Positions 1,789-49,188 of a DNA stretch of 64,000 nucleotides are shown here, in pieces (position 1 is the first letter of the stretch; every line of letters begins with the position of its first letter). The notes under the pieces were generated by a model. That model saw nothing but the letters and a program-made list of their open reading frames with translations. It made no database searches and was not told where the DNA came from. The translations under genes were made by a program, and so were the position numbers. Source of the DNA: Mesorhizobium sp. Root102 (GTDB lineage: Bacteria; Pseudomonadota; Alphaproteobacteria; Rhizobiales; Rhizobiaceae). The stretch covers positions 124,001 through 188,000 of the forward strand of contig NZ_LMCP01000044.1 in the NCBI RefSeq assembly GCF_001425625.1, written 5' to 3'.

Positions 1789-1796
1789 GCGGCTTG

Positions 1797-3957: not shown

Positions 3958-3958
3958 T

Positions 3959-4097: not shown

Positions 4098-4934
4098 ATG
4101 ACGACGATGAGCGTTGCCGAATATGCCCGCGACTGCGCGGCGCAAGGGTTCCGCGGCGACTACTCGGTCTGCCGTTCCGATTTCACCGTGGCGCAGGGTG
4201 ACGATTACAGCGCCGAGGAGCAGGCAGTGTGGCGCACGCTGTGCGACCGCCAGACCAAGCTGACGCGCAAGCTCGCCCACCACTCCTATCTCGACGGTGT
4301 CGAAAAACTTGGCCTGCTCGACCGCATCCCCGATTTCGAGGAGGTCAGCGCCAAGCTGCGCAAACTGACCGGCTGGGAGATCGTCGCCGTGCCGGGTCTC
4401 ATTCCCGCTGCCCCGTTCTTCGACCATCTCGCCAACCGCCGCTTCCCGGTCACCAACTGGCTGCGGACCCGGCAGGAGCTCGACTACATCGTCGAGCCCG
4501 ACATGTTCCACGATTTCTTTGGTCATGTGCCGGTGCTGTCGCAGCCGGTGTTCGCCGATTTCATGCAGATGTATGGCCGCAAAGCCGGCGACATCATTGC
4601 GCTGGGCGGCGACGAGATGATCACCCGGCTCTACTGGTACACGGCCGAATATGGCCTGATGCAGGAGGCCGGCCAGCCGCTGAAGGCCTTTGGCGCCGGC
4701 CTGATGTCGTCGTTTACCGAACTGCAGTTCGCGATCGACAGCAAGGACGCCCACCACGTGCCTTTCGACCTGGAAACGGTGATGCGGACCGGCTACGAGA
4801 TCGACAAGTTCCAGCGCGCCTATTTCGTGCTGCCGTCGTTCGAGGTCTTGCGCGATGCCTTCCAGACCGCCGACTTCGAAGCGATCGTCGCCCGCCGCAA
4901 GGGCCAGCCGGCGCTCGACCCGGCGACGGTCTAG
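4098..4934 (+). CDS. phhA: Phenylalanine 4-hydroxylase
   Basis: PhhA is an iron- and pterin-dependent monooxygenase that converts phenylalanine to tyrosine. The 278-aa protein is of the short bacterial type with only the catalytic domain. The iron ligands are visible as His138 and His143 (MFHDFFGHVP) and Glu184 (YWYTAEYGL), the same numbering as in the Chromobacterium enzyme. The ATG at 4098 follows GAGGAGAAAAACC. It is divergent from an Lrp/AsnC regulator. No pterin carbinolamine dehydratase (phhB) is adjacent. A GC hairpin follows the stop. Confidence 0.96.
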   Translation: MTTMSVAEYARDCAAQGFRGDYSVCRSDFTVAQGDDYSAEEQAVWRTLCDRQTKLTRKLAHHSYLDGVEKLGLLDRIPDFEEVSAKLRKLTGWEIVAVPGLIPAAPFFDHLANRRFPVTNWLRTRQELDYIVEPDMFHDFFGHVPVLSQPVFADFMQMYGRKAGDIIALGGDEMITRLYWYTAEYGLMQEAGQPLKAFGAGLMSSFTELQFAIDSKDAHHVPFDLETVMRTGYEIDKFQRAYFVLPSFEVLRDAFQTADFEAIVARRKGQPALDPATV

Positions 4935-33199: not shown

Positions 33200-33661
33200 C
33201 TACGCCAGCTTCGCCAGCAGTTTCATGAAGGTGGCGATCTCCTTGGCCGAGAGCGGCGCCAGCGTTTCCTGGGTGATCTCGCGCGCCAGCGGGATCAGGC
33301 GCTCGATGGCGTCGCGGCCTGCCGCGGTCAGATTGACCAGCAGCCGCCTTTTGTCGACCTCGTGCTTGGAAAGCTCGACTAGGCCGCGCGCCTTCAGCCG
33401 GTCGATGACGCCCTTCACCGTCGCCGCGTCCATGGCGATCAGCGTGCCGAGCTGGTTCTGCGAGGTCTCGCCGACATCGCGCAGCTTGGCCAGCGCCGCG
33501 AATTGCGGCGGCGTCAGATCACCGATACGCGCGGCAAAGATCGAGACATGGCGCTGATGCGCCTTGCGCAGGATGAAGCCGACCTGCTCCTGCAAGAGGT
33601 AATCCTGGTCGTCAGGCTCTTCGGCCTCGACCGGCTTCAGCAGATTGTCCTCGGCGCTCAC
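33200..33661 (-). CDS. MarR-family regulator of the hydroxylase operon
   Basis: The 153-aa protein has a winged helix-turn-helix with TSQNQLGTLIAMDAATVKGV as recognition region and RLKARGLVELSKHEVDKRRL as wing, between helical dimer regions. It is the last gene of the six-gene operon and overlaps the DUF1185 gene by 4 bases. MarR proteins respond to small aromatic or heterocyclic ligands, so it may sense the substrate or an intermediate of the operon's pathway. An inverted repeat upstream of the operon (40400-40417) is a candidate site. Confidence 0.9.
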   Translation of the reverse strand: MSAEDNLLKPVEAEEPDDQDYLLQEQVGFILRKAHQRHVSIFAARIGDLTPPQFAALAKLRDVGETSQNQLGTLIAMDAATVKGVIDRLKARGLVELSKHEVDKRRLLVNLTAAGRDAIERLIPLAREITQETLAPLSAKEIATFMKLLAKLA

Positions 33662-34242
33662 CGCAGCCCGTCCCAGGCCTTGATATCCCCAGCGGCCAGG
33701 CCGCCCATGCGGTCGTGCACGCGCGGACCGCAGGTCATGGCGAGGCAGAACAGGATTTCGTCGGGGCGTGGGCCATCGCTGATGCCGACTTCCATGGCGT
33801 CGAAATGGCTGCGCACATAGGCGGCGTTGATGTGGCCGAGCGGCACGTCGAGTTTTGAACCGAAAGCGCCGACCTTCTTCGCCGACGGCACGATCGCCTT
33901 GGCGTCGCCGAGCCGTTCGCGCATGGCGTAGCCGCCGGGCACATGCCAGAGCGCACCGTGCTCCAGCTCACCCGCTGTGCCGACGATGGCGCCCTTGCCG
34001 TAGCCGTCGATCTGCTTGACGTCGCCGCCGAGGGCCGCAATCAGCCGGTCGGCGAGCAACAGGCCCAGCGGCTTCAGATCGTCCATGGCGCTCTGCAAGT
34101 CCTCGACATAACGCCCGGCGAACGGGTTCTTGACCAGCGCCATGGCGGCGGCGCGGCGGCGCGGCATCTTGGCCAGCGGCCCGCCTTCGTGAAAGATCTC
34201 TTCGGTCAGCACCGCGATCTTGCGGATTGGAAACTCAGGCAT
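33658..34242 (-). CDS. DUF1185 (amino acid synthesis family) protein
   Basis: The 194-aa protein starts MPEFPIRKIAVLTEEIFHEG and contains KMPRRRAAAMALVKNPFAG and AIVGTAGELEHGALWHVPGG, typical of the DUF1185 family. The family is called amino acid synthesis protein on weak grounds; structures exist but no reaction is settled. The conserved His/Glu in GELEHGA and the Gly-rich loops suggest an enzyme. It overlaps the UPF0280 gene by 8 bases and the MarR gene by 4, so it belongs to the hydroxylase operon. The frame extends 32 codons upstream of ATG 34242 without similarity. Confidence 0.8.
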   Translation of the reverse strand: MPEFPIRKIAVLTEEIFHEGGPLAKMPRRRAAAMALVKNPFAGRYVEDLQSAMDDLKPLGLLLADRLIAALGGDVKQIDGYGKGAIVGTAGELEHGALWHVPGGYAMRERLGDAKAIVPSAKKVGAFGSKLDVPLGHINAAYVRSHFDAMEVGISDGPRPDEILFCLAMTCGPRVHDRMGGLAAGDIKAWDGLR

Positions 34243-35122
34243 GGGCAACTTCCTTCCCGGGACTTTTGTTGGGCGCAGCAAGCGCAACCGAGCCACTGAT
34301 GCGGATCTCACCGCCAAGAAACAGCGCCGATCCGGCAATCAGGCCGCGCCGGCGAAAATCTTCGGCGACGGCAAGGCCATTGTCCAGCGCCCGCGCCACT
34401 TCGCCAAGTGCAAGCGTGCCGACGCCATGTGTCACCAAGCGCGCGCCGAGATCGCTGTCGGGCGACAGTTCGTGTGCGGGAATGCGCTTGATGGCCGGAT
34501 TGCCGGGCAGGTCTACCGCGTTGGCAATGAGCGTCGCCGCCGCATCGGCCTCGGCGCCAGTCCGCGCGAGCACGGTGACGGCGTCGGCAATGCCAAGTGA
34601 GAAGGAGCGGCCGCGCCAACCGCTGGTGGCGACGCCGCGAACGCCATCTTCCGCGCGGATCGTGATCCGGTCCGCCATGTGGTTGCCGGTGCCGGCAATC
34701 GCCAAGCCCATCGACCGGCCCTTGCCGATATGAATTGCACAGTCGCCGCCATTGTTGACATAGGCGCGCTCGAGCTTGCGATCGGCAAGCAACGCGGCGA
34801 GCATTTCGTCGGCTACCGATCCCGCGACTGCGGCCATCGGTGTTATGAAACATTCCGCCAGGGGTATGACGGCTGCTTCCATACGGCGCGCCGTCGGGCC
34901 GTCAAAGGTGCGCGGCGCCAGGAAAAACGCCGGGAGCCGCAATTCGGGGAGCTCCTCGACCAACTCGATCAGGATCGTCTGAAAGCGCGCGACGGCTTGA
35001 GTGTAGGCAGCACGACACTCATCCGCCTCGCCAAAGGCCTCGACGATCAGGTCGATCGGCCCGTGGTTGAGATGCAGCCGCTTGCCGTCCTGCAGCCAAT
35101 GCGTTTGCGGGCCGTCCATCAT
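34235..35122 (-). CDS. UPF0280 family protein
   Basis: The 295-aa protein has the UPF0280 pattern: NHGPIDLIVEAFGEADECR at the start, FITPMAAVAGSVADEML in the middle and YVNNGGDCAIHIGKGRSMG, then DAVTVLARTGAEADAAATL. These blocks resemble ApbE flavin transferases (the VAGSVAD and NxGGD regions), so the protein may bind or transfer FMN, though activity is unproven. ATG 35122 overlaps the stop of the Fe-S gene as ATGA. The association with a redox operon fits a flavin-related role; this is inference. Confidence 0.82.
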   Translation of the reverse strand: MMDGPQTHWLQDGKRLHLNHGPIDLIVEAFGEADECRAAYTQAVARFQTILIELVEELPELRLPAFFLAPRTFDGPTARRMEAAVIPLAECFITPMAAVAGSVADEMLAALLADRKLERAYVNNGGDCAIHIGKGRSMGLAIAGTGNHMADRITIRAEDGVRGVATSGWRGRSFSLGIADAVTVLARTGAEADAAATLIANAVDLPGNPAIKRIPAHELSPDSDLGARLVTHGVGTLALGEVARALDNGLAVAEDFRRRGLIAGSALFLGGEIRISGSVALAAPNKSPGKEVAHA

Positions 35123-36660
35123 CCGGTCTCGTTCGACGCAGCGCGGCGCAGTTGCGCCAGTGGTGGCCATGGATTGCTGGCTGCGGCACCGGTGCCGCGG
35201 CGCGGATTGAAATATTCGCCACCCTTGGCAACGATATCCTCGACGCTGCGGATCTCTGCCTCGTAGCCCCCGAGCCTGATATAGTCGTCGCGGCGGAGCG
35301 TGAATTCGATCGGCGCCACCAGTGCGGGGGTCGGCACATAGCCGAAGGCGCCCTCCGGCACCCTGGTGACATCGACCATCAGCGTGATGCCGCCGCCCGG
35401 CCAGACATAGACCGGCGCGCCGCCGACCGTGACATAGGTGGTCAGGCCCTGCACGGAACGGGTGAGATTGACCGGGTTTTCAGTGACGCCGGCACGCAGT
35501 GAACCGCCGGCACCGCCGACGAACAGCACGGTGCACAGCGCAGGCTCGCAATTGTCCTCGATCAGCCCGACGGACTTTTGCAATCGCTCGGGAAACGGCT
35601 TCTGCACCGGTTTCAATTCGTCGTCGAGTTCGTAATAAGCGAACTGCTCGCCGGTGGTCGAAACCATCAGCAGCGACAGCCCTGGCCGCGCGCCCTTCTT
35701 GGCGTTCCATTCGCCGAGGATCGACAGCGGGTCGGAAATGCTGGTGCCGCCCCAGCCCAGCCCGGGTTCGGAGACCTTGAAATAGCGGCCCGGCGTCGAG
35801 CGGCGGCCGATTATTTTTATCCCGGTATCCTGCCAGCCGAGTACCTTCCCAGCCTGATGCTCGGAGACGACACCGGTGATGTGGTCGTCGACCACCACCA
35901 CCTCGTCGACCAGGCCGCGCCATTGCGTGGCGAACATGCCGATGGTGGCCGAACCGCAGCCGACACGCATGCGGTGTTCCTGCTTGCCGTCGATGACAGG
36001 CGGTTTGCCGGCTTCGACTATTAGGGTGGCGCCGCCGTCGATGGCCAGTTCCACCGGCTTGCGGTTGCACAGATTGAGCAGCGCGTCGCAGGTCGCGCGG
36101 CCTTCGGCCTTGGAGCCGCCGGTCAGATGATGCACACCGCCCAGCGACAGCATCTGCGAGCCATACTCGCCCGTCGTGACATGGCCGATCGCCTCACCTT
36201 GCGATCGCACAACAGCCGTTTCGGGTCCGATATGGCGGTCGGTGTCGATCTTCACCTTGACGCCACAGTAGGAGAAGATGCCCTCGGTGACGACAGTGAC
36301 GAGATCGACGCCTTCGACTTCCTGGCTGACGATGAAGGGGGCCGGTTTGTAGTCGGGATAGGTGGTGCCGGCGCCGATGGCGGTGACAAAACGGCGGCCG
36401 GTGTTGACCAGTTCGCCGTCCCACGCCTCGCCCTCGGCGATGAACGGCACGATAGCCGCGCCGGTCTCCGCCGCATGGTCGAGGATGGTCAGCGGGTCCA
36501 TCCGCACGATCCTGCCGCCGACATTGCCGTAGCGGTCGCAGGCACCGGTGCGGCCATCGGCGATGTAGCACATCACCGGACAGGCATCGCAGCGGATCTT
36601 CTCCGCCACCTGCTTCTCGCCGGGATCATGCGTCTCGAAGCGCTCGGCAAGCTCGCTCAT
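35119..36660 (-). CDS. 6-hydroxynicotinate reductase-like Fe-S protein
   Basis: The 513-aa protein has an N-terminal [4Fe-4S]-type cysteine set (Cys24, 27, 31, 41 in CDACPVMCYIADGRTGACDRYG), then a long conserved body with EGIFSYCGVKVKIDTDRHIG and RVGCGSATIGMFATQWRGL. It resembles 6-hydroxynicotinate reductase, the ferredoxin-dependent enzyme that reduces 6-hydroxynicotinate in anaerobic nicotinate fermentation. In an aerobic rhizobium the true substrate may be another cyclic amide. It overlaps the genes on both sides by 4 bases. Confidence 0.78.
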   Translation of the reverse strand: MSELAERFETHDPGEKQVAEKIRCDACPVMCYIADGRTGACDRYGNVGGRIVRMDPLTILDHAAETGAAIVPFIAEGEAWDGELVNTGRRFVTAIGAGTTYPDYKPAPFIVSQEVEGVDLVTVVTEGIFSYCGVKVKIDTDRHIGPETAVVRSQGEAIGHVTTGEYGSQMLSLGGVHHLTGGSKAEGRATCDALLNLCNRKPVELAIDGGATLIVEAGKPPVIDGKQEHRMRVGCGSATIGMFATQWRGLVDEVVVVDDHITGVVSEHQAGKVLGWQDTGIKIIGRRSTPGRYFKVSEPGLGWGGTSISDPLSILGEWNAKKGARPGLSLLMVSTTGEQFAYYELDDELKPVQKPFPERLQKSVGLIEDNCEPALCTVLFVGGAGGSLRAGVTENPVNLTRSVQGLTTYVTVGGAPVYVWPGGGITLMVDVTRVPEGAFGYVPTPALVAPIEFTLRRDDYIRLGGYEAEIRSVEDIVAKGGEYFNPRRGTGAAASNPWPPLAQLRRAASNETG

Positions 36661-39473
36661 CGGCGTGCCTCCTTTTCGCGAATGGCGGCGCGGATACGCG
36701 TCGGCGTCGCCGGAACCTTGGTGACCAGGACGCCGGTGGCATGGCGGATGGCATTGAGGATCGCCGGCGCCGTCGGGATCAGCACATGCTCTCCCAAACC
36801 CTTGGCACCAAAGGGTCCTTCCGGGTCCGAAACCTCTATCAGGATGGTTTCGATCGGCGGCACGTCGCCAATCGTCGGGATGAGATAGTCGTGCAAATTC
36901 TCGGTGCGGCCGGGGATGTACTCCTCCATCAGCGCCATGCCGATGCCTTGCGCGATGCCGCCTTCGATCTGGCCTTCGACCAGCAGCGGGTTGATCGCCT
37001 TGCCGACATCGTGCGCCGCGGTGATCTTGATCAGCTTCACGGTGCCGAGCTTGAGGTCGACCTCCAGTTCGGCGATCTGCGCGCCATAGCCGTAGACGGC
37101 GTAGGGTTTGCCCTGTCCCTTGGCATCGAGCGGCAGCGTCGGCGGATCGTAGGTCTCCTCGGCGCGGAAGACGAAGCCTTCGGCATCCACGTCCAATGTC
37201 TCGAGGTCGATGCGGCGGGTGGCTTCGCCTTCGCGGATGACGATAGCCGGGCCGTCGAGTTGCAGGGTTGCGTTTTCGGAAACATTGGCAAAGCGCAGGA
37301 TCTTTTCGCGCAAGGCGCGGCCGGCCTTCTCGGCCGCCTTGCCGGTGACGAAGGTCTGGCGCGAGGCTGATGTCTTGCCGGCGTCGGGAGTGATGGCCGT
37401 ATCGGCGCTCTTCAGCCGGAATCTTTCTAGCGGCAGGCCGAGCGCGTCGGCGCAGATCTGGGTGATGACCGTGTTCGAACCCTGGCCGATATCGACGGCG
37501 CCCTGGTGCAGGATGACCGTGCCGTCAGCCGCGATGCCGACCCGGATTGTCGACGGGTTGGGAAGCGAGGTGTTGCCGCAGCCATACCAGCACGACGCGA
37601 CGCCAACGCCGCGCTTTCTATCCCGATTGGCACTGTTGAATGCCTCCGTATCAGCCGTCGCGCGCGCCCAGTACGGCCGCAGCGATTCGAGGCACTCGGC
37701 TATGCCGACGCCGGAGTCCAGAAGCTGCCCGGTAACCGTTTCGGAACCGTTACGAAGGCAGTTCTTCAAGCGAAAATCGAGCCGGTCCATGCCGAGCTTG
37801 CCGGCCAGCTCGTCATAGAGCGTCTCCTGCATGATCGTCGCCTGCGGCACGCCGAAGCCGCGGAAAGCGCCTGAGATCGGCCCATTTGTGTGGATGGCGC
37901 GGCCCTCGGCACGGTAGTTCGGCGTCGCATAGGGGCCGGAGGCATGCACCGGCACGCGGTTGGCGACCGTCGGCCCCCAGCTGGCATAGGCGCCGGTGTT
38001 GAAATCGCCTGAGAAGATCATGCCGGTGACAAGGCCATCGGCATCGGCGCAGATGGTCGCTCGCATCACGGCTGGATGGCGCTTGGTGGTCGAAGTCATC
38101 GATTCGGTGCGGGTGTAGGCGAGTGCCGCCGGCCGCCCCGTCTTCAGCGCCACAAGGCCGATCAGCGGCTGCAGCGAAACGTCGAGTTTCGAGCCAAAGC
38201 CGCCGCCGGTCGCGGTCGGCACGATGCGCACCTTCTCGACGGCAAGGCCGAGCACCTTCGCCGTCTCGTCGCGGTCCATATAGGGCGCCTGGGTGCAGGC
38301 GACGACGACCAGTGTGTCGCCGTCCAGATAAGCATAGCCGGCTTCCGGTTCGATATAGGCGTGCTCGACATAGGAGGTGTCGATGGCGCCGGAGACGGTA
38401 AACGCGGCACTGGCAAGCGCCGCTTCCGGGTCGCCACGCTCGACGAAGCCGGAGGTCAGCAGGTTCGCCGGGCGGTTTTCGTGGATCAGCCTGGCACCGC
38501 TGGCCTGCGCTTCGGCCGACTGCAGAAAATGCGGTAGTTCGCTCCAGCGAACCGGAAAGTCCGACAGGTCGAGATCGACGATGGCCTCACGCTCACCGGC
38601 GACCAGCGCCACCGCCTCGCCGCGTAGGCGCGCAAACCCTTCGGCCAGCGCCGGCTGGTCGGCGAACGGGCCGATGACGCCGAAACAGTTTTTCCCTGGA
38701 ATGTCGGCGGCCGTGAAGACACCGGCGATACCGGGATGCGCCTTCGCCCATCCGTCGAGGTCGCCGAAGGCGAAGCTGGCGTGATAGTGCGGCGAGCGGA
38801 CCACCAGCACGGCCAGCGCATCGGCCGGGAAGGAATCGCCACCGAATTTTTCACCGCCGGTGACCTTCGGCACGCCGTCGAGCCTGACGGGTGAGGAGCC
38901 GATCGCATGGCCGGACTGAGGCAAGCGGTAATCGAGGCTTGCCGCCTGCAGGGAGGCATCCATCACCGCCGCGATGATCTTCCGGTAGCCGGTGCAGCGG
39001 CACAGAATGCCGCCCAGCGCATCCTGCACTTCGGTCTCGGTCGGACTGGGCTGCTTGTCGAGTAGCGCGGTTGCGGCGACCAGCAGCGCCGGCGTGCAGA
39101 TGCCGCATTGCGCCGCGCCATGGTCGAGGAACGAGGCCTGCAGCGCCGACAGCCGACCATTGGCGAGGCCTTCGACTGTCGTCACCGAGGTACCAGCGGC
39201 GGAAGCCGCCGACATCAGGCAGGCGCAAACGGGATCGCCGTCGACCAGCACCGTGCAGGCGCCGCAGTCACCGGCATCGCAGCCGACCTTGGTGCCGGTC
39301 AGCCCCAATTCGTCGCGCAGCACCAGGGAGAGCCGGCGCAGCGGAGGCACATTGACCGAAATGGCGGTGCCATTGACCTCAAAGGCGATGTGGGCGCGCG
39401 CAGCGCCGAAGCCAGGCTGGACGTTGCCGAGATCGGGCAGGGCTTTACGCATATCAGGCTGAACTTGGCTCAT
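36657..39473 (-). CDS. Xanthine-dehydrogenase-family molybdenum hydroxylase, fused [2Fe-2S] and Mo subunits
   Basis: The 938-aa protein joins two normally separate subunits. Residues 1-170 carry two [2Fe-2S] clusters: Cys65/70/73/85 (CDAGDCGACTVLVDGDPVC) and Cys123/126/158/160 (CGICTPA, CRCTGY). Residues ~195-938 are the Mo-cofactor part, with GGGFGSKLDVSLQPL, GAFRGFGVPQ and the catalytic Glu in GAKGLGEHVL. It hydroxylates a carbon next to nitrogen in a heterocycle, or an aldehyde, using water. Electrons pass to the FAD subunit encoded just upstream. ATG 39473 overlaps that gene's stop by 4 bases. Nicotinate is one possible substrate. Confidence 0.9.
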   Translation of the reverse strand: MSQVQPDMRKALPDLGNVQPGFGAARAHIAFEVNGTAISVNVPPLRRLSLVLRDELGLTGTKVGCDAGDCGACTVLVDGDPVCACLMSAASAAGTSVTTVEGLANGRLSALQASFLDHGAAQCGICTPALLVAATALLDKQPSPTETEVQDALGGILCRCTGYRKIIAAVMDASLQAASLDYRLPQSGHAIGSSPVRLDGVPKVTGGEKFGGDSFPADALAVLVVRSPHYHASFAFGDLDGWAKAHPGIAGVFTAADIPGKNCFGVIGPFADQPALAEGFARLRGEAVALVAGEREAIVDLDLSDFPVRWSELPHFLQSAEAQASGARLIHENRPANLLTSGFVERGDPEAALASAAFTVSGAIDTSYVEHAYIEPEAGYAYLDGDTLVVVACTQAPYMDRDETAKVLGLAVEKVRIVPTATGGGFGSKLDVSLQPLIGLVALKTGRPAALAYTRTESMTSTTKRHPAVMRATICADADGLVTGMIFSGDFNTGAYASWGPTVANRVPVHASGPYATPNYRAEGRAIHTNGPISGAFRGFGVPQATIMQETLYDELAGKLGMDRLDFRLKNCLRNGSETVTGQLLDSGVGIAECLESLRPYWARATADTEAFNSANRDRKRGVGVASCWYGCGNTSLPNPSTIRVGIAADGTVILHQGAVDIGQGSNTVITQICADALGLPLERFRLKSADTAITPDAGKTSASRQTFVTGKAAEKAGRALREKILRFANVSENATLQLDGPAIVIREGEATRRIDLETLDVDAEGFVFRAEETYDPPTLPLDAKGQGKPYAVYGYGAQIAELEVDLKLGTVKLIKITAAHDVGKAINPLLVEGQIEGGIAQGIGMALMEEYIPGRTENLHDYLIPTIGDVPPIETILIEVSDPEGPFGAKGLGEHVLIPTAPAILNAIRHATGVLVTKVPATPTRIRAAIREKEARR

Positions 39474-40327
39474 GCCGCCGCCACCTCGCCGCCAGTCGTC
39501 CGCCACCCAGCCGCAAGCACGGCACGGGCAACGATCTCGCGCACCGCATCGAGCCTATACTCGGCGCTGCCGCGCACATCGGCGATCGGCGATAGCTCTT
39601 CCATCGGCGCCGCCAGGGCCGCACCGGCGAGTCCGCCGTCCGCAGCCAACCCACGCAGAGCAGTCTCGACGCCAACAAGCCGCTTGGCCACAACCGAGCA
39701 GGATCCGGCGGCGACCGCTGCCTCCACAACGATGTCGTTCTTCACGACCAGACGTGCCGCCACCATGGCAATGGAAATGACGAGATAGCGCCGCGCGCCA
39801 AGCTTGACGAAAGCCGACGTGCCGATGGCTCTCGGCACGCGGATGGCCGTGACCATCTCACCGGGCAGCAGAGCCGTGCGGCGGTTGCCGAGAATGAAGT
39901 CCTGCAAGGGCAGATGCCGGGTCGCCCTCGCTGAACGCAGCTCGACCTCGGCATCGAGGATGAGCAGGCCCGGCACGCCGTCGGCGGCAGGCGACGCGTT
40001 GCAGAGATTGCCGGCGACCGAGGCGACGTTCTGGATCTGCGCCGAGCCAACCTCACGCGCCGCCTGTTTCAGTGCGTCGAAGGCTGGCGGCAAGGGATGG
40101 CGGATAATGTCGGTCCAAGTCGTGCGCGCACCGATGACGAAGTGGTCGTCCGTCTCCGCAATGCCGCGCAGCGCCGCCAGGCCGTTGATGTCGAGAACAT
40201 TGTCTCGGAAGGGTTTGCTGCCTTGCGCCGGATAGAAATCGGTGCCGCCGGCAAGGATGCGCCAGGCGCCCTCGCCAAGCAAAGCGAGCGCTTCGTCGAC
40301 CGAGGTGGGTTTCGCGTAACGGATCAC
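39470..40327 (-). CDS. Molybdenum hydroxylase FAD-binding subunit
   Basis: The 285-aa protein is of the CoxM/XdhB type: FAD loops ILAGGTDFYPAQG at about 24-36 and SVAGNLCNASPAAD near 100-115, then ARRYLVISIAMVAARL and the C-terminal FAD-subunit domain. It accepts electrons from the [2Fe-2S] clusters of the next gene product and passes them to NAD+ or another acceptor. It is the first gene of the six-gene operon. The start at ATG 40327 gives MIRYAKPTSVDEAL, the usual start. Confidence 0.9.
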   Translation of the reverse strand: MIRYAKPTSVDEALALLGEGAWRILAGGTDFYPAQGSKPFRDNVLDINGLAALRGIAETDDHFVIGARTTWTDIIRHPLPPAFDALKQAAREVGSAQIQNVASVAGNLCNASPAADGVPGLLILDAEVELRSARATRHLPLQDFILGNRRTALLPGEMVTAIRVPRAIGTSAFVKLGARRYLVISIAMVAARLVVKNDIVVEAAVAAGSCSVVAKRLVGVETALRGLAADGGLAGAALAAPMEELSPIADVRGSAEYRLDAVREIVARAVLAAGWRTTGGEVAAA

Positions 40328-40399
40328 GCTTTGCCTTCCAGAAATGAGGTCTTCCAGAAACCGGTGTTTCGAAAGACTCTGCCGGGCAGCCGGGAAAAT

Positions 40400-40417
40400 T
40401 CATTCGTATGCAAATGA
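40400..40417. promoter_or_regulatory. Candidate operator upstream of the hydroxylase operon
   Basis: TCATT (40400-40404) and AATGA (40413-40417) are inverted half-sites around CGTATGCA, in an AT-richer patch 73 bases upstream of the FAD-subunit start and facing pncA. Size and symmetry suit a MarR dimer such as the one encoded at the end of the operon. No direct evidence. Confidence 0.4.
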
Positions 40418-40591
40418 TATCAAGCCAGCAGGAATTGTCAAAGCCGGAGATTGCGACGGCTTGATCGGCACGCATTTGTTATGTCCCAGAGGTTGACGCA
40501 GCCGGCCATCTGGTCAAGTTTCTGCCTCCGGTCGCGACAGCGGCATTTTTTCACTGGAGCAAGCTCCCAAGACAACCCACAAGGAAGCCCC

Positions 40592-41206
40592 ATGGCCGAC
40601 GAAGCGCTTGTTGTCATCGACCTGCAGAACGACTTTTGTCCGGGCGGCGCACTGGCGGTTGCCGGCGGCGACGAGATCGTGCCGCTGGTCAACGATCTGA
40701 TCCGGCGAACCGACCATGTCGTGCTGACGCAGGACTGGCATCCGGCCGGTCATTCCAGCTTTGCCTCCAGCCATCCGGGTGCGCAGCCTTATACGATGAT
40801 CGAGATGCCCTATGGCCAGCAGACGCTGTGGCCGGACCATTGCATCCAGGGCAGCCTGGGCTCGGATTTCCACTCCGGCCTCGCCTGGACCAAGGCCGAG
40901 CTCGTTATCCGCAAGGGATTTAGGCCTGATATCGACAGCTACTCGGCCTTCTTCGAGAACGACCGTACGACGCGGACCGGCCTTGCCGGCTATCTCCGGG
41001 AGCGCGGCATCGACACGCTGACCCTGGTCGGCCTGGCGACCGATTTCTGCGTTGGCTTTTCGGCGCTGGATGCCGTCAGCCAGGGTTTCAAAACCACCGT
41101 ACGGCTCGATGCATGCCGCGGCATCGATCTCAACGGTTCGCTCGGGGCCATGCTGCAGCGCATGCGCGACGCCGGCGTGACGCTCGAAGACCATTTGTCG
41201 GACTGA
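40592..41206 (+). CDS. pncA: Nicotinamidase
   Basis: PncA hydrolyses nicotinamide to nicotinate and ammonia in NAD salvage. The 204-aa protein has the catalytic triad Asp10 (VVIDLQNDFCPGG), Lys108 (LVIRKGF) and Cys153 (GLATDFCVGFSALDA), and the metal site in DWHPAGHSSF (Asp48, His50, His54). ATG 40592 follows AAGGAAG. It is divergent from the molybdenum-hydroxylase operon and 8 kb from pncB. The antiporter gene follows after 7 bases. Confidence 0.95.
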   Translation: MADEALVVIDLQNDFCPGGALAVAGGDEIVPLVNDLIRRTDHVVLTQDWHPAGHSSFASSHPGAQPYTMIEMPYGQQTLWPDHCIQGSLGSDFHSGLAWTKAELVIRKGFRPDIDSYSAFFENDRTTRTGLAGYLRERGIDTLTLVGLATDFCVGFSALDAVSQGFKTTVRLDACRGIDLNGSLGAMLQRMRDAGVTLEDHLSD

Positions 41207-41213
41207 CCGGACA

Positions 41214-42665
41214 GTGGGGCGCAAGAGGGGCTTTTTGCCGACTGCAGCGGGTGTAATCGCGGGCTCTGCAATCGCCGTTGCGATGCTGTTTCCAACACTG
41301 GCACTGGCTGCGGAGGAACACGGCCTGCCCGGCGCTTCGATGTCGCTGTGGTGGGCGCTGCCCTTTGCCGGGCTGCTTTTGTCGATCGCTACCGGTCCCC
41401 TGCTCTTCCATCATGTCTGGGAGCACCACTACGGCAAGATCACGGCCCTTTGGGCGGCGCTGGTGATCGTGCCGCTGGCATTAGCCTTCGGTGTGCCCTC
41501 GGCGACCGAGGCGGTGCTGCATGCGCTGCTCACCGAATACATGTCCTTCATCATTCTGCTGTTTGCGCTGTTCACCATTTCGGGCGGCATTCTCATTGCC
41601 GGCAACATCCACGGTACGCCGCTGGTCAATGCCGGGCTGTTGCTGGTCGGCGCGCTGCTGGCCTCGGTGATCGGCACGACCGGCGCCTCGATGATCCTGA
41701 TCCGGCCGATCCTGCGCGCCAACGATAACAGGCCGTTCAATGCCCATGTCGTCATCTTCTTCATCTTCCTGGTTTCCAATATCGGGGGCTCGCTGACGCC
41801 GCTCGGCGACCCGCCACTGTTCGTCGGCTTCCTGCGCGGCGTCGACTTCTTCTGGACCTTCGCCAACCTCTGGCGCGAGACGCTGTTCGTCGGCGTCGTC
41901 GTGCTGGCCGTCTTCCTAGGCATTGACATCGCCCTGCACCAGCGCGAGGCCGGAGCGCCGAAAATCAAGGATCCGACACCGGATACGAAGGTGCGCTTGC
42001 GCGGCCTGGCCAACCTTCCGCTGCTAGTGGGCGTGATCGGCGCCATCCTGCTGTCGGCGGCCTGGAGGCCGGGCGTGAGCTTTTCCGTGTTCGGCGTCAG
42101 TCTCGAACTGCAGAATCTGGTGCGCGATGCCATCATCCTGGCGCTGGCCCTGCTGTCGCTTCCGCTCTCCTACAAGAGCCACCGGGAAGCCAACGGCTTC
42201 AACTGGGGTCCGATATCGGAGGTGGCGAAATTGTTTGCCGGCATCTTCATCTGCATCGTGCCGGTCATCGCCATCCTAAGGGCAAGCCATGAGGGGGCAC
42301 TGGCGCCACTGGTGTCGCTTGTCAGTTCGCCCTCGGGCGCGCCCAACGATCTCGCCTATTTCTGGCTGACAGGGGCGCTGTCATCCTTCCTCGACAATGC
42401 GCCGACCTATCTGGTGTTCTTCGAACTTGCCGGCGGCGACCCACGGCATCTGATGACGGAATTTGCCTCGACGCTGGCGGCGATCTCGGCCGGCGCGGTG
42501 TTCATGGGCGCCAACACCTATATCGGCAATGCGCCGAACTTCATGGTCTACGCCATCGCCCGACATCGCGGCGTGAAGATGCCGGGCTTTTTCGGCTATA
42601 TGGCATGGTCGGGCCTGGTGCTGGTCCCGACATTCCTGATCGCGGGCTTTCTGTTCTTCGGCTGA
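41214..42665 (+). CDS. Sodium:proton antiporter (NhaD-type)
   Basis: The 483-aa protein has about 12 membrane segments. Features of NhaD/ArsB-type carriers are present: FIILLFALFTISGGILIAG, NIGGSLTPLGDPPLFVGFLRG (with the conserved SNIGG-x(4)-GDPPL motif), and SSFLDNAPTYLVFFELAGGD. It exchanges Na+ for H+. The start at GTG 41214 gives a hydrophobic signal-like segment (GVIAGSAIAVAMLFPTLALA); a later start is possible. It follows pncA closely and its stop abuts the stop of the convergent LIV ATPase gene (TGATCA). Confidence 0.87.
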   Translation: MGRKRGFLPTAAGVIAGSAIAVAMLFPTLALAAEEHGLPGASMSLWWALPFAGLLLSIATGPLLFHHVWEHHYGKITALWAALVIVPLALAFGVPSATEAVLHALLTEYMSFIILLFALFTISGGILIAGNIHGTPLVNAGLLLVGALLASVIGTTGASMILIRPILRANDNRPFNAHVVIFFIFLVSNIGGSLTPLGDPPLFVGFLRGVDFFWTFANLWRETLFVGVVVLAVFLGIDIALHQREAGAPKIKDPTPDTKVRLRGLANLPLLVGVIGAILLSAAWRPGVSFSVFGVSLELQNLVRDAIILALALLSLPLSYKSHREANGFNWGPISEVAKLFAGIFICIVPVIAILRASHEGALAPLVSLVSSPSGAPNDLAYFWLTGALSSFLDNAPTYLVFFELAGGDPRHLMTEFASTLAAISAGAVFMGANTYIGNAPNFMVYAIARHRGVKMPGFFGYMAWSGLVLVPTFLIAGFLFFG

Positions 42666-43385
42666 TCAGCCCACGCCGACATAACGGCGAACCGCCGACG
42701 GGTCGGCGCGCAATTCCTCGACATCGACCGTCTCGCGATTGCGGCCGTTTTCGATGAAGGCAACGCGGTCGGCGACCGAAAGCACCGCATCGACACGCTG
42801 CTCGACCAGGATGGTCGAAACGCCCATGTCTCGCAGCTTCGACACCGTCTCGCGAATCTTGGCGATCATCGACGGCATCAGCCCTTCGGTCGGCTCGTCG
42901 AGCAGCAGCACCTGCGGCTCGAGGCACAGCGCGCGCGCCATCGCCAGCATCTGCTGTTCGCCGCCGGACAGCGTGCCGGAGCGTTGCCTTAGCCGCTGGC
43001 GCAGCAGCGGAAAGAGGTCGAGCACGCTTTCGCGCGTCGCCTTGCCCTTGCCGCGCGCCATCAGGCCGATCTCGATGTTTTCGGCCACCGTCATCTCGGC
43101 GAACAGCCGCCTGCCTTGCGGCACATAGGCGACGCCGGCCTTGGGCACCTCATGCGCCGGCAGTCCTGTCAATTCCTTGCCATCGAGCCTGATCGAGCCG
43201 GCGCTTGAGGGAACCAGCCCCATGATGGCCTTCAGCGTCGTCGTCTTGCCGGCGCCATTGCGGCCGAACAAGCACAGCACCTCGCCCTTGTTCAGCACCA
43301 GATCGAGGCCATAGAGCACCTGGACCTCGCCATAGAAGCAGTCGAGCCCCGAGATTGCCAGCGCTTCGGACTTCGTCTTCGTCAT
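42666..43385 (-). CDS. livF: LIV-type ABC transporter ATP-binding protein LivF
   Basis: The 239-aa protein is the LivF-type ATPase of the branched-chain amino acid/amide importer: Walker A GRNGAGKTTTLKAIMGLVP, signature LSGGEQQMLAMARAL, Walker B VLLLDEPTEGLMP. The usual LivF phrase VAYVPQGRRLFAEMTVAENI is present. It forms the import motor with LivG. It overlaps livG by 4 bases and ends the five-gene operon. Confidence 0.94.
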   Translation of the reverse strand: MTKTKSEALAISGLDCFYGEVQVLYGLDLVLNKGEVLCLFGRNGAGKTTTLKAIMGLVPSSAGSIRLDGKELTGLPAHEVPKAGVAYVPQGRRLFAEMTVAENIEIGLMARGKGKATRESVLDLFPLLRQRLRQRSGTLSGGEQQMLAMARALCLEPQVLLLDEPTEGLMPSMIAKIRETVSKLRDMGVSTILVEQRVDAVLSVADRVAFIENGRNRETVDVEELRADPSAVRRYVGVG

Positions 43386-44104
43386 GGGGCGGTCCCCAGA
43401 TAGGCTTCCTGCACCGCCGCGTTCTCGCGGATCGCTTCGGGCGTGCCTTCGGCGAGAATCTTGCCGGCATTGAAAACGGTGATGCGGTCGGCCAGATGCA
43501 TGACAACAGGCATGTTGTGCTCGATCAAAAGCACGGTGGCGTTTTTGGCGATCTCGCGCACCAGGGTGATGAAATTGTCGATCTCAGAGTCGGCCAGCCC
43601 TTGCGTCGGTTCGTCGAGGATCAGCAGGCGCGGCTTCAGCGCCAGGCCCATCGCCACTTCCAGCAGGCGCTGATGGCCGTAGGACAATTGCCCGGCCGGC
43701 ATGTGGGCGCGATCGGCCAGGCCCGTGCGTTCGAGCGTCGCCATCACCCCGGCCCGCACCGCGCCCTTCGAACGGCCATCGCTCAAAGTCCGCTGCACCG
43801 GCAGCGCGACATTGTCGTAGGCGGAGAGATTGGCAAAGACGCTGGTGATCTGGAACGTGTAGGCGATGCCCTGGCGAACCCGGATATAGGCCGGCTGGCC
43901 GGTGATGTCGGTGCCGTCGAAGACGATCATGCCGGAAGATGGTGCGATGCGGCCGCTGACCAGGCTGACGAAGGTAGTCTTCCCGGCCCCGTTGGGTCCG
44001 ATGACGGCGCGAATCTCGCCCGGCATCAGCGCGAAATTGACGTCGTCGACGGCGCGCAGACCGCCAAAGCTGCGCGACAGGCCCTTGGTGGTCAAAAGCG
44101 GCAT
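43382..44104 (-). CDS. livG: LIV-type ABC transporter ATP-binding protein LivG
   Basis: The 240-aa protein has Walker A GPNGAGKTTFVSLVSG, signature LSYGHQRLLEVAMGLAL, Walker B LLILDEPTQGLAD and the LivG-type ITGQPAYIRVRQGIAYTFQI. ATG 44104 overlaps the livM stop by one base (TGATG); the frame extends upstream into livM but that part is not homologous. It pairs with LivF. Confidence 0.94.
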   Translation of the reverse strand: MPLLTTKGLSRSFGGLRAVDDVNFALMPGEIRAVIGPNGAGKTTFVSLVSGRIAPSSGMIVFDGTDITGQPAYIRVRQGIAYTFQITSVFANLSAYDNVALPVQRTLSDGRSKGAVRAGVMATLERTGLADRAHMPAGQLSYGHQRLLEVAMGLALKPRLLILDEPTQGLADSEIDNFITLVREIAKNATVLLIEHNMPVVMHLADRITVFNAGKILAEGTPEAIRENAAVQEAYLGTAP

Positions 44105-45066
44105 CACGGCAGCCACTCGAGCCAGCGCTGCCTGATGCTGCCCAGAATGCCCTTGGGGAAAAACAGCACCAGAAGGATCAGCGCGATGCCGACAATCAGC
44201 AGATAGGCGGAGGTGTAGCCGCTGGTGACGTCGATGACATAGTACATGAACAGCGTGCCGATCAGCGGCCCAAGCGTTGTGGCGGCACCCCCGAGCAGCA
44301 CCCACAGCAGCGGCAGGATCGAATACTGTACCGAAGCGAAGCTCGATCCGACATAGCCGAACAGCAGCGCATAGGCAGCGCCCGAAGCAGCGCAGATGGT
44401 GCCGGAGATCACGACGGCGGCGAGTTTGTTGGAGAAGGTGTCGTAGCCGAGCATTTTCGTCCGCTCCTCGTTCTCGCGGATGGCGACCAGCACGCGGCCA
44501 TATCTGGAGCGCACGATAGCCAGCGTGACGAGCAACACGATCGAAAATAGCCCCAGCGCTGTCATGTAGCGCACGGTCGGATTGGTGAGCTCAAGCGACG
44601 TCGCGCCGAGGCTGAGCACCCGCGCCGGCTGCGGCACGACCATGCCCTGGTCGCCGCCGGTCCATGTCGCGAAATAGAGGATGAGGAGGTAGAATACCTG
44701 GGCGAACATCATGGTGACAATCATGAAAGCGACGCCCGTGGTGCGCAGCGCCAGCAGGCCGATCACCATCGCCAGCACAGCGCCGCAGGCAATTCCGCCG
44801 AGGAAGGCCAGCGGCACGCTCCAGTCGAACTGGATGATGGCAAGGCCGGCGCCGTAGAGTCCGGCGGCAAAGAACATCGCATGGCCGAGGCTGAGCAGGC
44901 CGACATAGCCGAACAGCATGTTGTAGCCCATGGCGAACACCGCCAGCACCATGATGCGGGCGAGCAGGCCATGATAATACTCCGGCAGCAGTAAGCTCAG
45001 CACGAAGAGCAGGGCGATGACGCCGAGATGCAGTGCATAGGCCTTTGCCGGCGAAGCTTCGCTCAT
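44104..45066 (-). CDS. livM: LIV-type ABC transporter permease LivM
   Basis: The 320-aa permease has about 8-10 membrane helices and the LivM blocks MVLAVFAMGYNMLFGYVGLL, GHAMFFAAGLYGAGLAI and RENEERTKMLGYDTFSNKL, the cytosolic loop that contacts the ATPases. It overlaps livH by 4 bases. Substrate could be leucine/isoleucine/valine, urea or an amide. Confidence 0.93.
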   Translation of the reverse strand: MSEASPAKAYALHLGVIALLFVLSLLLPEYYHGLLARIMVLAVFAMGYNMLFGYVGLLSLGHAMFFAAGLYGAGLAIIQFDWSVPLAFLGGIACGAVLAMVIGLLALRTTGVAFMIVTMMFAQVFYLLILYFATWTGGDQGMVVPQPARVLSLGATSLELTNPTVRYMTALGLFSIVLLVTLAIVRSRYGRVLVAIRENEERTKMLGYDTFSNKLAAVVISGTICAASGAAYALLFGYVGSSFASVQYSILPLLWVLLGGAATTLGPLIGTLFMYYVIDVTSGYTSAYLLIVGIALILLVLFFPKGILGSIRQRWLEWLP

Positions 45067-45944
45067 CGCGATGCCGTCCCGAACAGGCCTTGCGGCCGAA
45101 ACACCAGCACCATGGCGACGAGCAGCGTGGCGATGATCTTGGCCAAAGTCGGCGAGAAGAACATCGAGATGATGCCATCGGAGAGGCCGATCAGCACGGC
45201 GGCGACGACCGTGCCGCGCAGCGAGCCGAGGCCGCCGATGATGACGACGATGAAGGAGAGCAGCAGCGGATCCTGCCCCATCAAATAATGCGCCTGGCTG
45301 ATCGGCACGATCAGCACCGCGGCAATGGCCGCCAGCATGGCGCCAAGCGCGAAGACGCCGCCATAGACTCGGCCGACGGGGATGCCGAAGGCTTGTGCCG
45401 TCTCGCTGTCATACTGCGTGGCACGCATGGTGAGGCCGATCCTGGTGCGCGTCAGCACCAGCCATGTCGCAAGCAGCAGCAGCGCCGAAGCGGCGATAAC
45501 AGACAATTTGTAGCCGGAGTAACCGAACCACGGCAAAAGGATGCGGTAGCTGAACGGCGGCTCGACGGGCCGTGCCTCCGGACCGTAAAAGGTCAGCGCC
45601 AGCTGCTGGATGATGTAGAGCATGCCGATGGTGGCGACGATGGTGGCTTCCGGATTGTAGTTGAGCCGGCGCAGCACCAGCCTTTCGGCGACCAGCGCAA
45701 TGGCGCCGACGATCAGCGGCGCAATCACCAGCGCCGCCAGGAAGCCGAGCGCCGGATCGCCGCCGATGGCTGTTGTGATCGCCCAGGCGAGCACGGCGCC
45801 CAGCATGAAGAACTCGCCATGAGCGACATTGACCACCCGCATGACGCCGAACACCAGCGACAGCCCAAGCGCCGTCAGCGCCAGCACCGCCGAGGTGACG
45901 AGGCCTTCGAGGGCAGCGAGGAGGAGGTGGGGTCCGAAGTGCAT
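45063..45944 (-). CDS. livH: LIV-type ABC transporter permease LivH
   Basis: The 293-aa permease has the LivH blocks LVTSAVLALTALGLSLVFGV, NVAHGEFFMLGAVLAW and TMRATQYDSETAQAFGIPVG, the ATPase contact loop. It follows the binding-protein gene, separated by a 150-base inverted repeat that could reduce transcription of the membrane components relative to the binding protein. Confidence 0.93.
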   Translation of the reverse strand: MHFGPHLLLAALEGLVTSAVLALTALGLSLVFGVMRVVNVAHGEFFMLGAVLAWAITTAIGGDPALGFLAALVIAPLIVGAIALVAERLVLRRLNYNPEATIVATIGMLYIIQQLALTFYGPEARPVEPPFSYRILLPWFGYSGYKLSVIAASALLLLATWLVLTRTRIGLTMRATQYDSETAQAFGIPVGRVYGGVFALGAMLAAIAAVLIVPISQAHYLMGQDPLLLSFIVVIIGGLGSLRGTVVAAVLIGLSDGIISMFFSPTLAKIIATLLVAMVLVFRPQGLFGTASR

Positions 45945-46105: not shown

Positions 46106-47410
46106 TCACAGCGCTTGCGTCGTATAATCTCCTTCGGCCTCGTAAAGCCCGTCCTCGATCTTGGTCTTGTGCACGACCTTCAGCTTGCCGCCTTCGACCT
46201 TGGAGATGTTCTGGATGCCAAAACACTGGTGGATCTTGCCGTTGAAGGTTTTCGGTCCCTGCGGATGCTCCGGACCTTCGGCGAATTCGGTCAGCGCCTC
46301 GGTCGCCTCGACCAGCTTGGCGCGGTCTTCCGGTCCCTTGTAGCCGGCATCCTCCATCGCCTTCTTGACGACATAGAGCGTCTCCCAGCAGCCGAACATG
46401 TGGGCGGCGGTGGAGACGTCCTTGGGGTCGCCGACGGCGGCGCCATTGTCGTCGATGCCGACGGCGGCGCGATAGGCTTTCTGCGCCTCGGAATCATTGG
46501 CCTGCGCATAACGCGGCGAGCCTTCCCAGAAATGGCTGCCGTCGAGGAATTCGAGGCCGGGGCTGTTGATGTCGGTGGCCTCGAGCGAATCGATGAAGCC
46601 GAACAGTTGCGGCCGGTTGGAGCCGTAGAACTCGCCGAGCTCCTTGACGAAGGTCAGCACGGCCGGGCCGACCATGACGTGGTAGATCACCTCGGTCTCG
46701 GCCGGGATCTGCGGGAAATACTTGGTGAAGGACGATTCCGTCGGCGGGATGGCGATCTGCGCGATGACCTCGGCGCCTTGCGCCTTCAATGCCGGCGGCA
46801 GGTAGTCGCGATGGTCGTAGCCGAAGGCGAAATCCGGGAAAATCTGCGTCACCTTCTTGCCGGCATTGGCCGCGATCCAAGGCGCCATCGACTGGATCTG
46901 GCTCTTCACGTCGGTGATGCCGGGCTGGAAGACATAACGGTTCAGTTTGGTCGAGGCGACGTGGTGGCCTTCGCTGACGACGAAATAGGGCATCTTGTTT
47001 TCGCCGGCGGCGGGCGCCGAGCCGATGACGACATGCGAGAACAGCGTGCCGAAGACAATGTCGGTCTTGTGCTGGGTGGCGAACTTGCCGACCACCTCGG
47101 CGCCGCGGCCGGGATCGGTGCCGTCATCCTCGATGATCACCTCGACCTGGCGGCCATTGATGCCGCCGGCGGCGTTGATCGCCTTGACCGCGGCAGCGGT
47201 GGTCTTCTCGTACCAGCGGCCATAGGCGGCGCCGATGCCGGTGCGGTGCGACTGGAAGCCGATCTTGATCGGCGCCGAACTCTGCGCCTGGGAATAGCGG
47301 ACGAAGCCGGGGGCAACGGCGAGCCCGGCGCCCGCGGCCAGACCCTTCAGCGCCGTGCGGCGGGTGAGGGTAGTCTTGGAGAGGTCAAAAAATCCGTTCT
47401 TGTCAGCCAT
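46106..47410 (-). CDS. LIV-type ABC transporter substrate-binding protein
   Basis: The 434-aa protein has a twin-arginine-type signal (LTRRTALKGLAAGAGLAV) and the type I periplasmic-binding fold of LivJ/amide-binding proteins: IKIGFQSHRTGIGAAYGRWY, INAAGGINGRQVEVIIEDDG and the C-terminal KVVHKTKIEDGLYEAEGD. Its length suits the amide/urea-binding or branched-chain amino acid group. ATG 47410 (MADKNGFF) follows GGGGAACGAAC; the frame extends 29 codons upstream. It is the first gene of the operon. Confidence 0.91.
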   Translation of the reverse strand: MADKNGFFDLSKTTLTRRTALKGLAAGAGLAVAPGFVRYSQAQSSAPIKIGFQSHRTGIGAAYGRWYEKTTAAAVKAINAAGGINGRQVEVIIEDDGTDPGRGAEVVGKFATQHKTDIVFGTLFSHVVIGSAPAAGENKMPYFVVSEGHHVASTKLNRYVFQPGITDVKSQIQSMAPWIAANAGKKVTQIFPDFAFGYDHRDYLPPALKAQGAEVIAQIAIPPTESSFTKYFPQIPAETEVIYHVMVGPAVLTFVKELGEFYGSNRPQLFGFIDSLEATDINSPGLEFLDGSHFWEGSPRYAQANDSEAQKAYRAAVGIDDNGAAVGDPKDVSTAAHMFGCWETLYVVKKAMEDAGYKGPEDRAKLVEATEALTEFAEGPEHPQGPKTFNGKIHQCFGIQNISKVEGGKLKVVHKTKIEDGLYEAEGDYTTQAL

Positions 47411-47562
47411 GTTCGTTCCCCTGTTTTCAGTCTTGACCAACGATAAGGCGGCTTCGGCATCCTCGCTCAGAGGGATGCAAAAATTGCATGTGTACAAACT
47501 AAATCACCAAAGCCTTGGTATGGCAAGCGAGCTTCCCCGACGATATCGCGGCCGCCGTTTTC

Positions 47563-49002: not shown

Positions 49003-49137
49003 CTCCCCCACAGGAGGGGAGATTGGCAGTTCGCCAGATCGGCGCTTTTCTTGCAATGTCGAAAATTGGCGAAAGCGGAGATGACATCCAATCTCCCCCC
49101 AAGTGGGGGAGATTGCCGGCAGGATAGAGGGGGGCGC
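48977..49137. repeat. Long inverted repeat between membrane protein and pncB
   Basis: The 161-base element has outer arms GCGCCCCCCTCTGTCCTGCC (48977-48996) and GGCAGGATAGAGGGGGGCGC (49118-49137), which are reverse complements apart from one mismatch. Inner CATCTCCCCC and GGGGGAGATTG stretches add smaller hairpins. It belongs to a rhizobial palindromic repeat type and overlaps the probable 5' end of the membrane protein gene. Confidence 0.75.
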
Positions 49138-49188
49138 GAAGGAACTCATCCTATCCAAGATTGCCATCTTGGCTGGCGTGGCCACCCC

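Follow-up and report, generated by a model that had tools for sequence, protein, structure and literature searches.

The six-gene operon at positions 33200-40327 (minus strand) of a 64,000-nucleotide stretch of Mesorhizobium sp. Root102 DNA (contig NZ_LMCP01000044.1, positions 124,001 to 188,000; hereafter the window) probably belongs to a MarR-controlled regulon through which nicotinamide and nicotinate are broken down by a variant of the known reductive route, with two of its enzymes exchanged for unrelated ones. In the proposed scheme, whose substrate and enzyme activities are all predicted, (i) PncA would make nicotinate from nicotinamide, (ii) a liv-type transporter would import nicotinate, (iii) an FAD subunit and a fused iron-sulfur/molybdenum (Fe-S/Mo) enzyme would hydroxylate C6 of nicotinate, (iv) an Fe-S reductase fed by ferredoxin-NADP reductase (FNR) would convert 6-hydroxynicotinate to 1,4,5,6-tetrahydro-6-oxonicotinate, (v) a HyuA/HyuB pair at a second locus would open the lactam instead of an enamidase, and (vi) DUF1185 would act on the opened semialdehyde. 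UPF0280 would serve as a maturase that attaches flavin covalently to the reductase rather than as a pathway enzyme. This reading is favored because the cassette recurs with an enamidase homologue, the two hydroxylase types exclude each other and so do the two ring openers, yet all four pairings occur, pncA lies near the cassette in a number of loci, the FNR/HyuA promoter bears the same type of palindrome, UPF0280 has an ApbE fold and occurs in the same genomes as the reductase, and the aerobe Azorhizobium caulinodans is reported to use the route.

An earlier note on this DNA had proposed that an N-heterocycle is hydroxylated and its ring then reduced, with nicotinate as a candidate substrate; the former is supported here as the likely chemistry, and the latter as a candidate. 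The note doubted the route in an aerobic host, yet the reductive route has been reported for aerobic A. caulinodans (PMC3511419, PMC9304392), which removes this objection. The first source also infers its use by SG-6C, the second describes it for both Eubacterium barkeri and A. caulinodans, and a third has A. caulinodans catabolizing nicotinate in aerobic culture, with no measurable catabolism in microaerobic culture (PMC3357923). The note had also entertained an undescribed pathway for an unidentified substrate; the enamidase and NicAB exchanges described below argue against this, and the pathway itself is probably not new.

Anatomy and conservation of the operon

An open-frame check found six reading frames without internal stops, whose successive start/stop overlaps of 4, 4, 4, 8, and 4 bases exactly match the arrangement next to pncA given in the earlier note. 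From first to last, the minus-strand genes encode the FAD subunit of the Mo hydroxylase (39470-40327, GTG start at 40327; Pfam FAD_binding_5, 4.8e-41), the fused [2Fe-2S]/Mo hydroxylase (36657-39473, ATG at 39473; Pfam MoCoBD_1, MoCoBD_2, and Fer2_2), a 6-hydroxynicotinate reductase-like Fe-S protein (35119-36660, ATG at 36660), UPF0280 (34235-35122, ATG at 35122; NCBIfam PRK04334.1-2, 393 bits against a cut-off of 290), DUF1185/AA_synth (PF06684; 33658-34242, ATG at 34242; Pfam, 3.1e-70; related by sequence to PDB 3byq and 2qtp), and a MarR-family regulator (33200-33661, GTG at 33661, overlapping the DUF1185 stop by 4; Pfam MarR, 1.2e-11). Upstream extension of the open frame is also possible for the hydroxylase, UPF0280, and DUF1185, and these three starts are therefore choices. 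Pfam or NCBIfam families confirm five of the six genes, the reductase, named from annotated relatives, being the exception.

The operon is a real, widely conserved unit. Its partial gene order is seen repeatedly well outside the genus, so the co-occurrence in other genomes on which the earlier note had left a question is borne out: the block is conserved and its parts recur far beyond Mesorhizobium. The unit is larger than the six genes described in the note: a transporter, a membrane protein, an operator candidate, and a distant hydantoinase/FNR locus belong to it too.

Exchange of hydroxylases and ring openers

Cassette composition was surveyed in 93 loci, namely the reductase representatives at 97% that are flanked by 5 kb or more on either side, taken from 126 after dropping 9 near-identical loci and 24 with less than 5 kb on a side. 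The reductase was also found in 26 plasmid records, seven of which were read for their surroundings (H1, H2, H5, H8, H10, H12, and H26), and in 74 genomes of the order, from which the surroundings of 40 regions were taken.

Two types of hydroxylase and two types of ring opener exclude one another across these loci. The fused hydroxylase is present in 76, NicB in 7, both in none, and neither in 10; an enamidase is present in 12, HyuA with HyuB in 24, both in none, and neither in 57. Fisher tests of exclusion, which ignore relatedness, give 2e-6 for the hydroxylases and 0.03 for the openers. All four pairings nevertheless occur: fused hydroxylase with HyuAB (20 of the 93), fused hydroxylase with enamidase (8), NicAB with enamidase (3), and NicAB with HyuAB (1, plus L208, which is plasmid record H5 and lies outside the 93). 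A reductase tree of 60 rows requires at least three changes of hydroxylase type and at least four of opener; it was built by a quick method and leaves 18 of its 57 branches open. Exchanges of this kind within a single reductase lineage are most readily explained if the enzymes concerned serve the same steps and have replaced one another.

An enamidase homologue recurs with the cassette. In a Sulfitobacter (L039), an amidohydrolase gene adjoins the cassette, and its product aligns along its entire length with 2vun, the enamidase of E. barkeri (E 1.8e-105); copies with 70-86% identity accompany the cassette in L098, L112, L127, L130, L137, L141-L144, L146, and L150, with NicAB as the hydroxylase in L127 and L146. 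The clusters L127-L129, from one genus, combine NicAB with a reductase 70-71% identical to that of the window, UPF0280, DUF1185 of the b type, a liv-type transporter, and MarR; one of the three also has an enamidase and FNR in range.

HyuA/HyuB, of the ATP-dependent 5-oxoprolinase/hydantoinase-type family, is proposed from its genomic context as the ring opener in place of the enamidase. In several other Mesorhizobium (e.g., L044, L046, L050, and L052), the operon run is followed by hyuB, hyuA, and the FNR gene. The window's own genome carries the HyuB-HyuA-FNR unit at C44:67295-72091, with 86% DNA identity over bases 2-4788 of a 4788-base query; its proteins are 62-77% identical to plasmid copies, with HyuA at 64% and HyuB at 77% to cassette-linked copies. 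A text search found no co-mention of hydroxynicotin- compounds and hydantoinase in the literature covered.

The fused Mo hydroxylase, complete with its FAD subunit in the window, is the putative nicotinate 6-hydroxylase. Its best NCBIfam models are aldehyde oxidoreductase and xanthine dehydrogenase, every score falling below the cut-off, and xanthine or aldehyde oxidation was rejected as its function on that ground. These top models would nonetheless suit a xanthine dehydrogenase/aldehyde oxidoreductase operon unrelated to pyridines, to which the reductase name had merely been carried over by annotation. Such an operon is very improbable, given that the enzyme and NicAB have repeatedly replaced each other within one reductase lineage, that an enamidase occurs in the cassette, and that pncA lies at the palindrome.

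A second alternative keeps the architecture and changes the substrate to a close relative of nicotinate, such as another pyridine-carboxylate or a 6-substituted nicotinate, with the fused hydroxylase as the mark of that substrate and pncA serving only NAD salvage. The use of a fused enzyme rather than NicAB, with aldehyde oxidoreductases as its best solved relatives, would fit this idea, as would a locus that shows no hydroxylase (L053), where the pathway could start from 6-hydroxynicotinate or from a precursor substituted at C6; SG-6C is also described as degrading 6-chloronicotinate via 6-hydroxynicotinate. The idea is nevertheless improbable. The fused hydroxylase stands with the enamidase in 8 of the 93 loci, the window's transporter binding protein shares 66-68% identity with its counterparts in one NicAB locus and two fused-hydroxylase loci, and pncA shares the palindrome-bearing promoter region. 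Nicotinate itself remains the more probable substrate.

Two side observations concern individual loci. L053, from Mesorhizobium ephedrae, lacks the genes for the hydroxylase and its FAD subunit between pncA and the reductase but retains pncA, the palindrome, the reductase, UPF0280, DUF1185, MarR, and HyuAB/FNR; this organism is perhaps a user of 6-hydroxynicotinate or 6-substituted nicotinates. The alpha subunit of a ring-hydroxylating dioxygenase joins the cassette in L038, L109, L148, L149, and L153.

Relation to known nicotinate pathways

E. barkeri reportedly ferments nicotinate with NdhFSLM, a reductase, and an enamidase, as Alhapel is said to have described in 2006. The present system resembles that fermentation, which is compared by description, in hydroxylation followed by ring reduction and in the enamidase homologue (2vun) of its sister clusters; it differs from the four-subunit Ndh, the enamidase, and the anaerobic downstream route of E. 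barkeri.

A. caulinodans and Bradyrhizobiaceae are described as sharing a conserved cluster for nicotinate degradation (AZC_2804-2790 and blr3818-3830) that contains a reductase, an ABC transporter, and two unknown proteins (PMC3511419); the latter two may well be UPF0280 and DUF1185, in which case the likeness to the window extends to these genes as well as the reductase and the transporter. Unlike that cluster, the window has the fused Fe-S/Mo and FAD hydroxylase instead of NicAB, no enamidase was seen in the stretches examined, pncA is divergent, and HyuAB and FNR lie at a distant locus.

The 6-hydroxynicotinate reductase-like protein

The reductase gene is present as a single copy in the genome (C44:159119-160660). 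The protein has no Pfam or NCBIfam match, and its name rests on annotated 6-hydroxynicotinate reductase relatives with 57-70% identity; its nearest named relatives, among the best 80 of at least 588 matches, are from Mesorhizobium and reach 98%. Cysteines 24, 27, 31, 41, 132, 198, 235, and 371 are present in 54 of 54 aligned rows, and Cys198 is absent from the more distant L037. By sequence, the best solved match (E 0.8) is unrelated. A fold search with a model of pLDDT 76 gave no Foldseek match at E 0.001 and a best Z of 4.7 (VIA), from which a new fold is not implied. The E. barkeri reductase, to which that of SG-6C is 42% identical (PMC3511419), is the point of comparison for the cofactor. 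The GSAT motif of the window's reductase, near residue 239, was considered as the place where its Thr would carry the flavin; this idea was rejected, as L037 has Ala and L036 has Ser in place of that Thr, which is thus not conserved.

In one alphaproteobacterium (G324:C1:2969820-2971246), the reductase appears as two frames with a 4-base overlap, split near model position 234. The enzyme may have divided naturally into two subunits there, or the sequence may contain an error.

UPF0280 as a putative flavin transferase

UPF0280 adopts an ApbE-type fold in its AlphaFold model (pLDDT 92, pTM 0.90), which upholds the likeness to ApbE noted earlier. The model matches the Desulfovibrio UPF0280 structure 2o34 with a Z of 20.5 and ApbE/Ftp/FmnB structures with Z of 13.8-15.3 over 205-218 residues, the first other fold scoring 7.8; the fold spans residues 11-287, and Foldseek gives ApbE-type matches at E 1e-5 to 6e-3. 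A192, D193, and T197 are conserved in 51 of 51 rows and N124-D127 in 49 to 51 of 51. These residues, together with the D...T spacing of the ADAAAT motif, presumably correspond to ApbE motifs. The protein differs from ApbE and Ftp in its lack of a Pfam ApbE match, its identity of 10-21% in the structure alignments, and a catalytic histidine that is not evident.

The distribution of UPF0280 follows that of the reductase without exception in the genomes sampled. Both are found in the identical 28 of 190 Alphaproteobacteria genomes and the identical 32 of 398 genomes of the phylum, as judged with profiles that were built from cassette members and could miss distant UPF0280 (e.g., Desulfovibrio 2o34), such that the co-occurrence holds for this subgroup. 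UPF0280 adjoins the reductase on the same strand in all 28 (two judged on fragments at contig ends) and lies directly downstream of it in 91 of the 93 loci, the exceptions being L135 (elsewhere in the genome) and L153 (upstream). Seven further reductase genomes all hold UPF0280 somewhere, three of them not beside the reductase.

The E. barkeri reductase is said, on the strength of Alhapel's work of 2006, to carry a covalent flavin. Because of this property, the co-occurrence, and the ApbE fold, UPF0280 is suggested to flavinylate the reductase as its maturase; as a protein outside the Pfam ApbE family, it would at most work in the manner of ApbE. Alternatively, UPF0280 might be an enzyme of the pathway or an electron-transfer subunit of the reductase. 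The perfect co-occurrence would suit a subunit as well, and the histidines that reach 90% conservation are only two, H17 and H20 (49 of 51 rows each), which both lie towards the N terminus; no counterpart is evident of the catalytic residue H257 of V. cholerae ApbE, a mutant structure of which is among the Foldseek results. A role of this kind is rather unlikely in view of the ApbE fold over residues 11-287, the conserved ApbE-like residues, and three genomes in which UPF0280 and the reductase gene are widely separated or lie on different contigs, which is less usual for a subunit. The maturase proposal is retained. On balance, the analysis leans towards a joint claim, namely that UPF0280 works in the cytoplasm as a flavin transferase of ApbE fold dedicated to 6-hydroxynicotinate reductase, its sole client in Pseudomonadota, and that the pathway is modular (two exchangeable hydroxylases and two exchangeable openers) under one MarR operator. 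No use of the name UPF0280 was found in a text search of the literature covered.

DUF1185

The action of DUF1185 on the opened-ring semialdehyde is tentative and forms the weakest step of the scheme. The genome has three copies. DUF1185 is found in 26 of the 28 reductase genomes and also in 12 of the 162 without the reductase, and it is therefore not dedicated to the pathway. A precedent is provided by TgnF, a DUF1185 homologue of the Acinetobacter trigonelline pathway that is reported to stimulate succinate semialdehyde oxidation; with their own HcdD, the authors of the same source saw no such stimulation (PMC7913881). TgnF, known here by description, is likewise a DUF1185-type protein in a pyridine catabolic cluster and is reported to stimulate a semialdehyde dehydrogenase, but an aldehyde dehydrogenase is near the cassette in only 4 of the 93 loci. 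With 6 of the 126 loci in all, an aldehyde dehydrogenase was discarded as a recurrent neighbor of DUF1185.

Alternatively, DUF1185 might be an enamine deaminase, or a 2-formylglutarate decarboxylase, acting after HyuAB instead of a helper of semialdehyde oxidation. HyuAB would be expected to leave an enamine, and the DUF1185 fold is described as chorismate-mutase-like (PMC2954203). This assignment is doubtful: DUF1185 also accompanies the enamidase, a self-sufficient deaminase in E. barkeri (PMC9304392), with all 12 enamidase loci carrying the b type, and both its presence in the 12 genomes without the reductase and the reported activity of TgnF also speak against it. Action on the semialdehyde is kept as the working assignment.

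DUF1185 also occurs in a second setting. In L205 (8399-10194) and L206 (8384-10194), it is directly followed by a 41-42% enamidase relative, with no reductase in the stretch shown; in one case, a Mesorhizobium plasmid with a 42% enamidase relative, an annotated succinate-semialdehyde dehydrogenase is also present.

A shared palindrome and a proposed MarR regulon

An imperfect palindrome, TCATTCGTATGCAAATGA, at 40400-40417 (within a 30-bp block at 40395-40424) of the divergent promoter shared by the FAD gene and pncA is a candidate MarR-type operator. Alignment of 34 intergenic regions (the window and 33 divergent-pncA loci) shows an ungapped site in 33, in 20 versions, with the exact 18-letter core in 23. 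A weight matrix built from 33 loci was tested on the 93 others (126 less 33, a set distinct from the 93 survey loci) and scored above 15 in 30, 6 of them of the same genus. The best site lay inside a gene hit in 0 of these 30 and at most 350 bases upstream of a cassette gene in 28, distributed over FAD (12), FNR (7), HNR (5), HyuA (2), pncA (1), and an amidohydrolase (1). Forty shuffled loci, in which single-base composition only was kept, gave no score above 12.

In the window's own genome (6.76 Mb), the pattern with at most 2 mismatches occurs at four places, against none for the reversed-pattern control: the operon/pncA promoter, the divergent FNR/HyuA promoter (C44:68239), C3:104707, and C48:114586. 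The palindrome is thus shared by two promoters of the system, which hold two of the four places, and is rare elsewhere, as expected of a MarR regulon; C3:104707 lies inside an open frame and is probably a chance match. The operon/pncA and FNR/HyuA sites are 96 kb apart. Across the genus, a match is found in 30 of 31 genomes, with 0 to 3 per genome for the control, and both site types lie on one contig, 11 to 245 kb apart, in 14 genomes, in each case among the matches listed; the second site was checked at FNR/HyuA in the own genome and L156. The two loci are read here as halves of one MarR regulon that moved apart with the palindrome kept, and the MarR protein is predicted to bind it.

The remaining site (C48:114586-114603; L218 at 7587) lies just after a RACo gene, amid tetrahydrofolate/corrinoid-type methyl-transfer genes (MTHFR, a pterin-binding enzyme, and a formyl transferase), and several relatives have a second palindrome about 3 kb from the C48-type site. 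It could belong to another regulator or could provide a link to N-methylnicotinate demethylation.

Evidence against the reductive nicotinate reading

Several observations weigh against the scheme. Regarding the ring opener, 57 of the 93 loci have none in range, including window-type loci, whose opener is out of range, and no enamidase was found in the window or in five other examined stretches of the same genome, to which the search extended. The hydroxylase has its best PDB relatives among aldehyde oxidoreductases (437 bits), with nicotinate dehydrogenase lower (270 and 225 bits for its two Mo subunits), and a search of the window found no NicAB orthologues, only a 42% NicA match at the fused Fe-S domain and local NicB matches of 26-36% at the hydroxylase. 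UPF0280 has no Pfam family at E 0.001, hence no Pfam ApbE match, and shows no evident catalytic histidine in the 51-row alignment. No palindrome scores above 15 in 63 of the 93 loci outside the training set. Finally, the frequencies are biased towards the window's type, since at least 588 matches exist and the named loci are the top 80 among them.

Neighborhood of the operon

The locus extends past pncA to about 49.2-50.5 kb of the window, with a further part outside it. The nicotinamidase gene pncA (40592-41206, plus strand; NCBIfam PRK11609.1, 219 bits, cut-off 174), for which ATG 40592 is preferred to a longer frame, is divergent from the operon and lies within about 10 kb of the cassette in 37 of the 93 loci (13 of 57 at 85% clustering). 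At the far end lies the nicotinate phosphoribosyltransferase gene pncB (49189-50493, minus strand; NCBIfam PRK05321.1, 515 bits, cut-off 379). The divergent pncA and nearby pncB of the earlier note are thereby confirmed, each by an NCBIfam score above its cut-off.

A CitMHS_2-type transporter (41214-42665, plus strand; Pfam, 1.1e-189) adjoins pncA here and in many of the nearest, Mesorhizobium-type loci; its membership in the system is uncertain. The liv-type ABC transporter follows on the minus strand, comprising a livF-like ATPase (42666-43385, assigned from its open frame and sequence and found in the same position in L034, L035, and L039), a livG-like ATPase (43382-44305, with a true start probably near 44100), livM-like (44104-45066) and livH-like (45063-45944) permeases, and a substrate-binding protein (46106-47497) with 66-68% identity to the cassette-linked proteins of L034, L035, and L039. 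Conserved beside the transporter is a multi-pass membrane protein (47563-49185, minus strand) that matches no Pfam or NCBIfam family; it is 40-44% identical to hypothetical proteins beside the cassette in the same three loci and has a relative in 24 of the 93. The compared loci that carry the same cassette with the binding and membrane proteins come from a Fuscovulum, a Neorhizobium, and a Sulfitobacter plasmid.

Implications

The new points are the proposed roles of UPF0280 as a reductase maturase and HyuAB as a ring opener, and a putative MarR regulon in two loci. The guess of an unknown cyclic substrate would be replaced by directly testable steps. If the reading is true, UPF0280 gains a function and DUF1185 a context, and the catabolism of vitamin B3 by ring reduction would be a common trait of aerobic Alphaproteobacteria that live in soil, with plants, or in the sea; of the 190 alphaproteobacterial genomes sampled, 28 carry the reductase.

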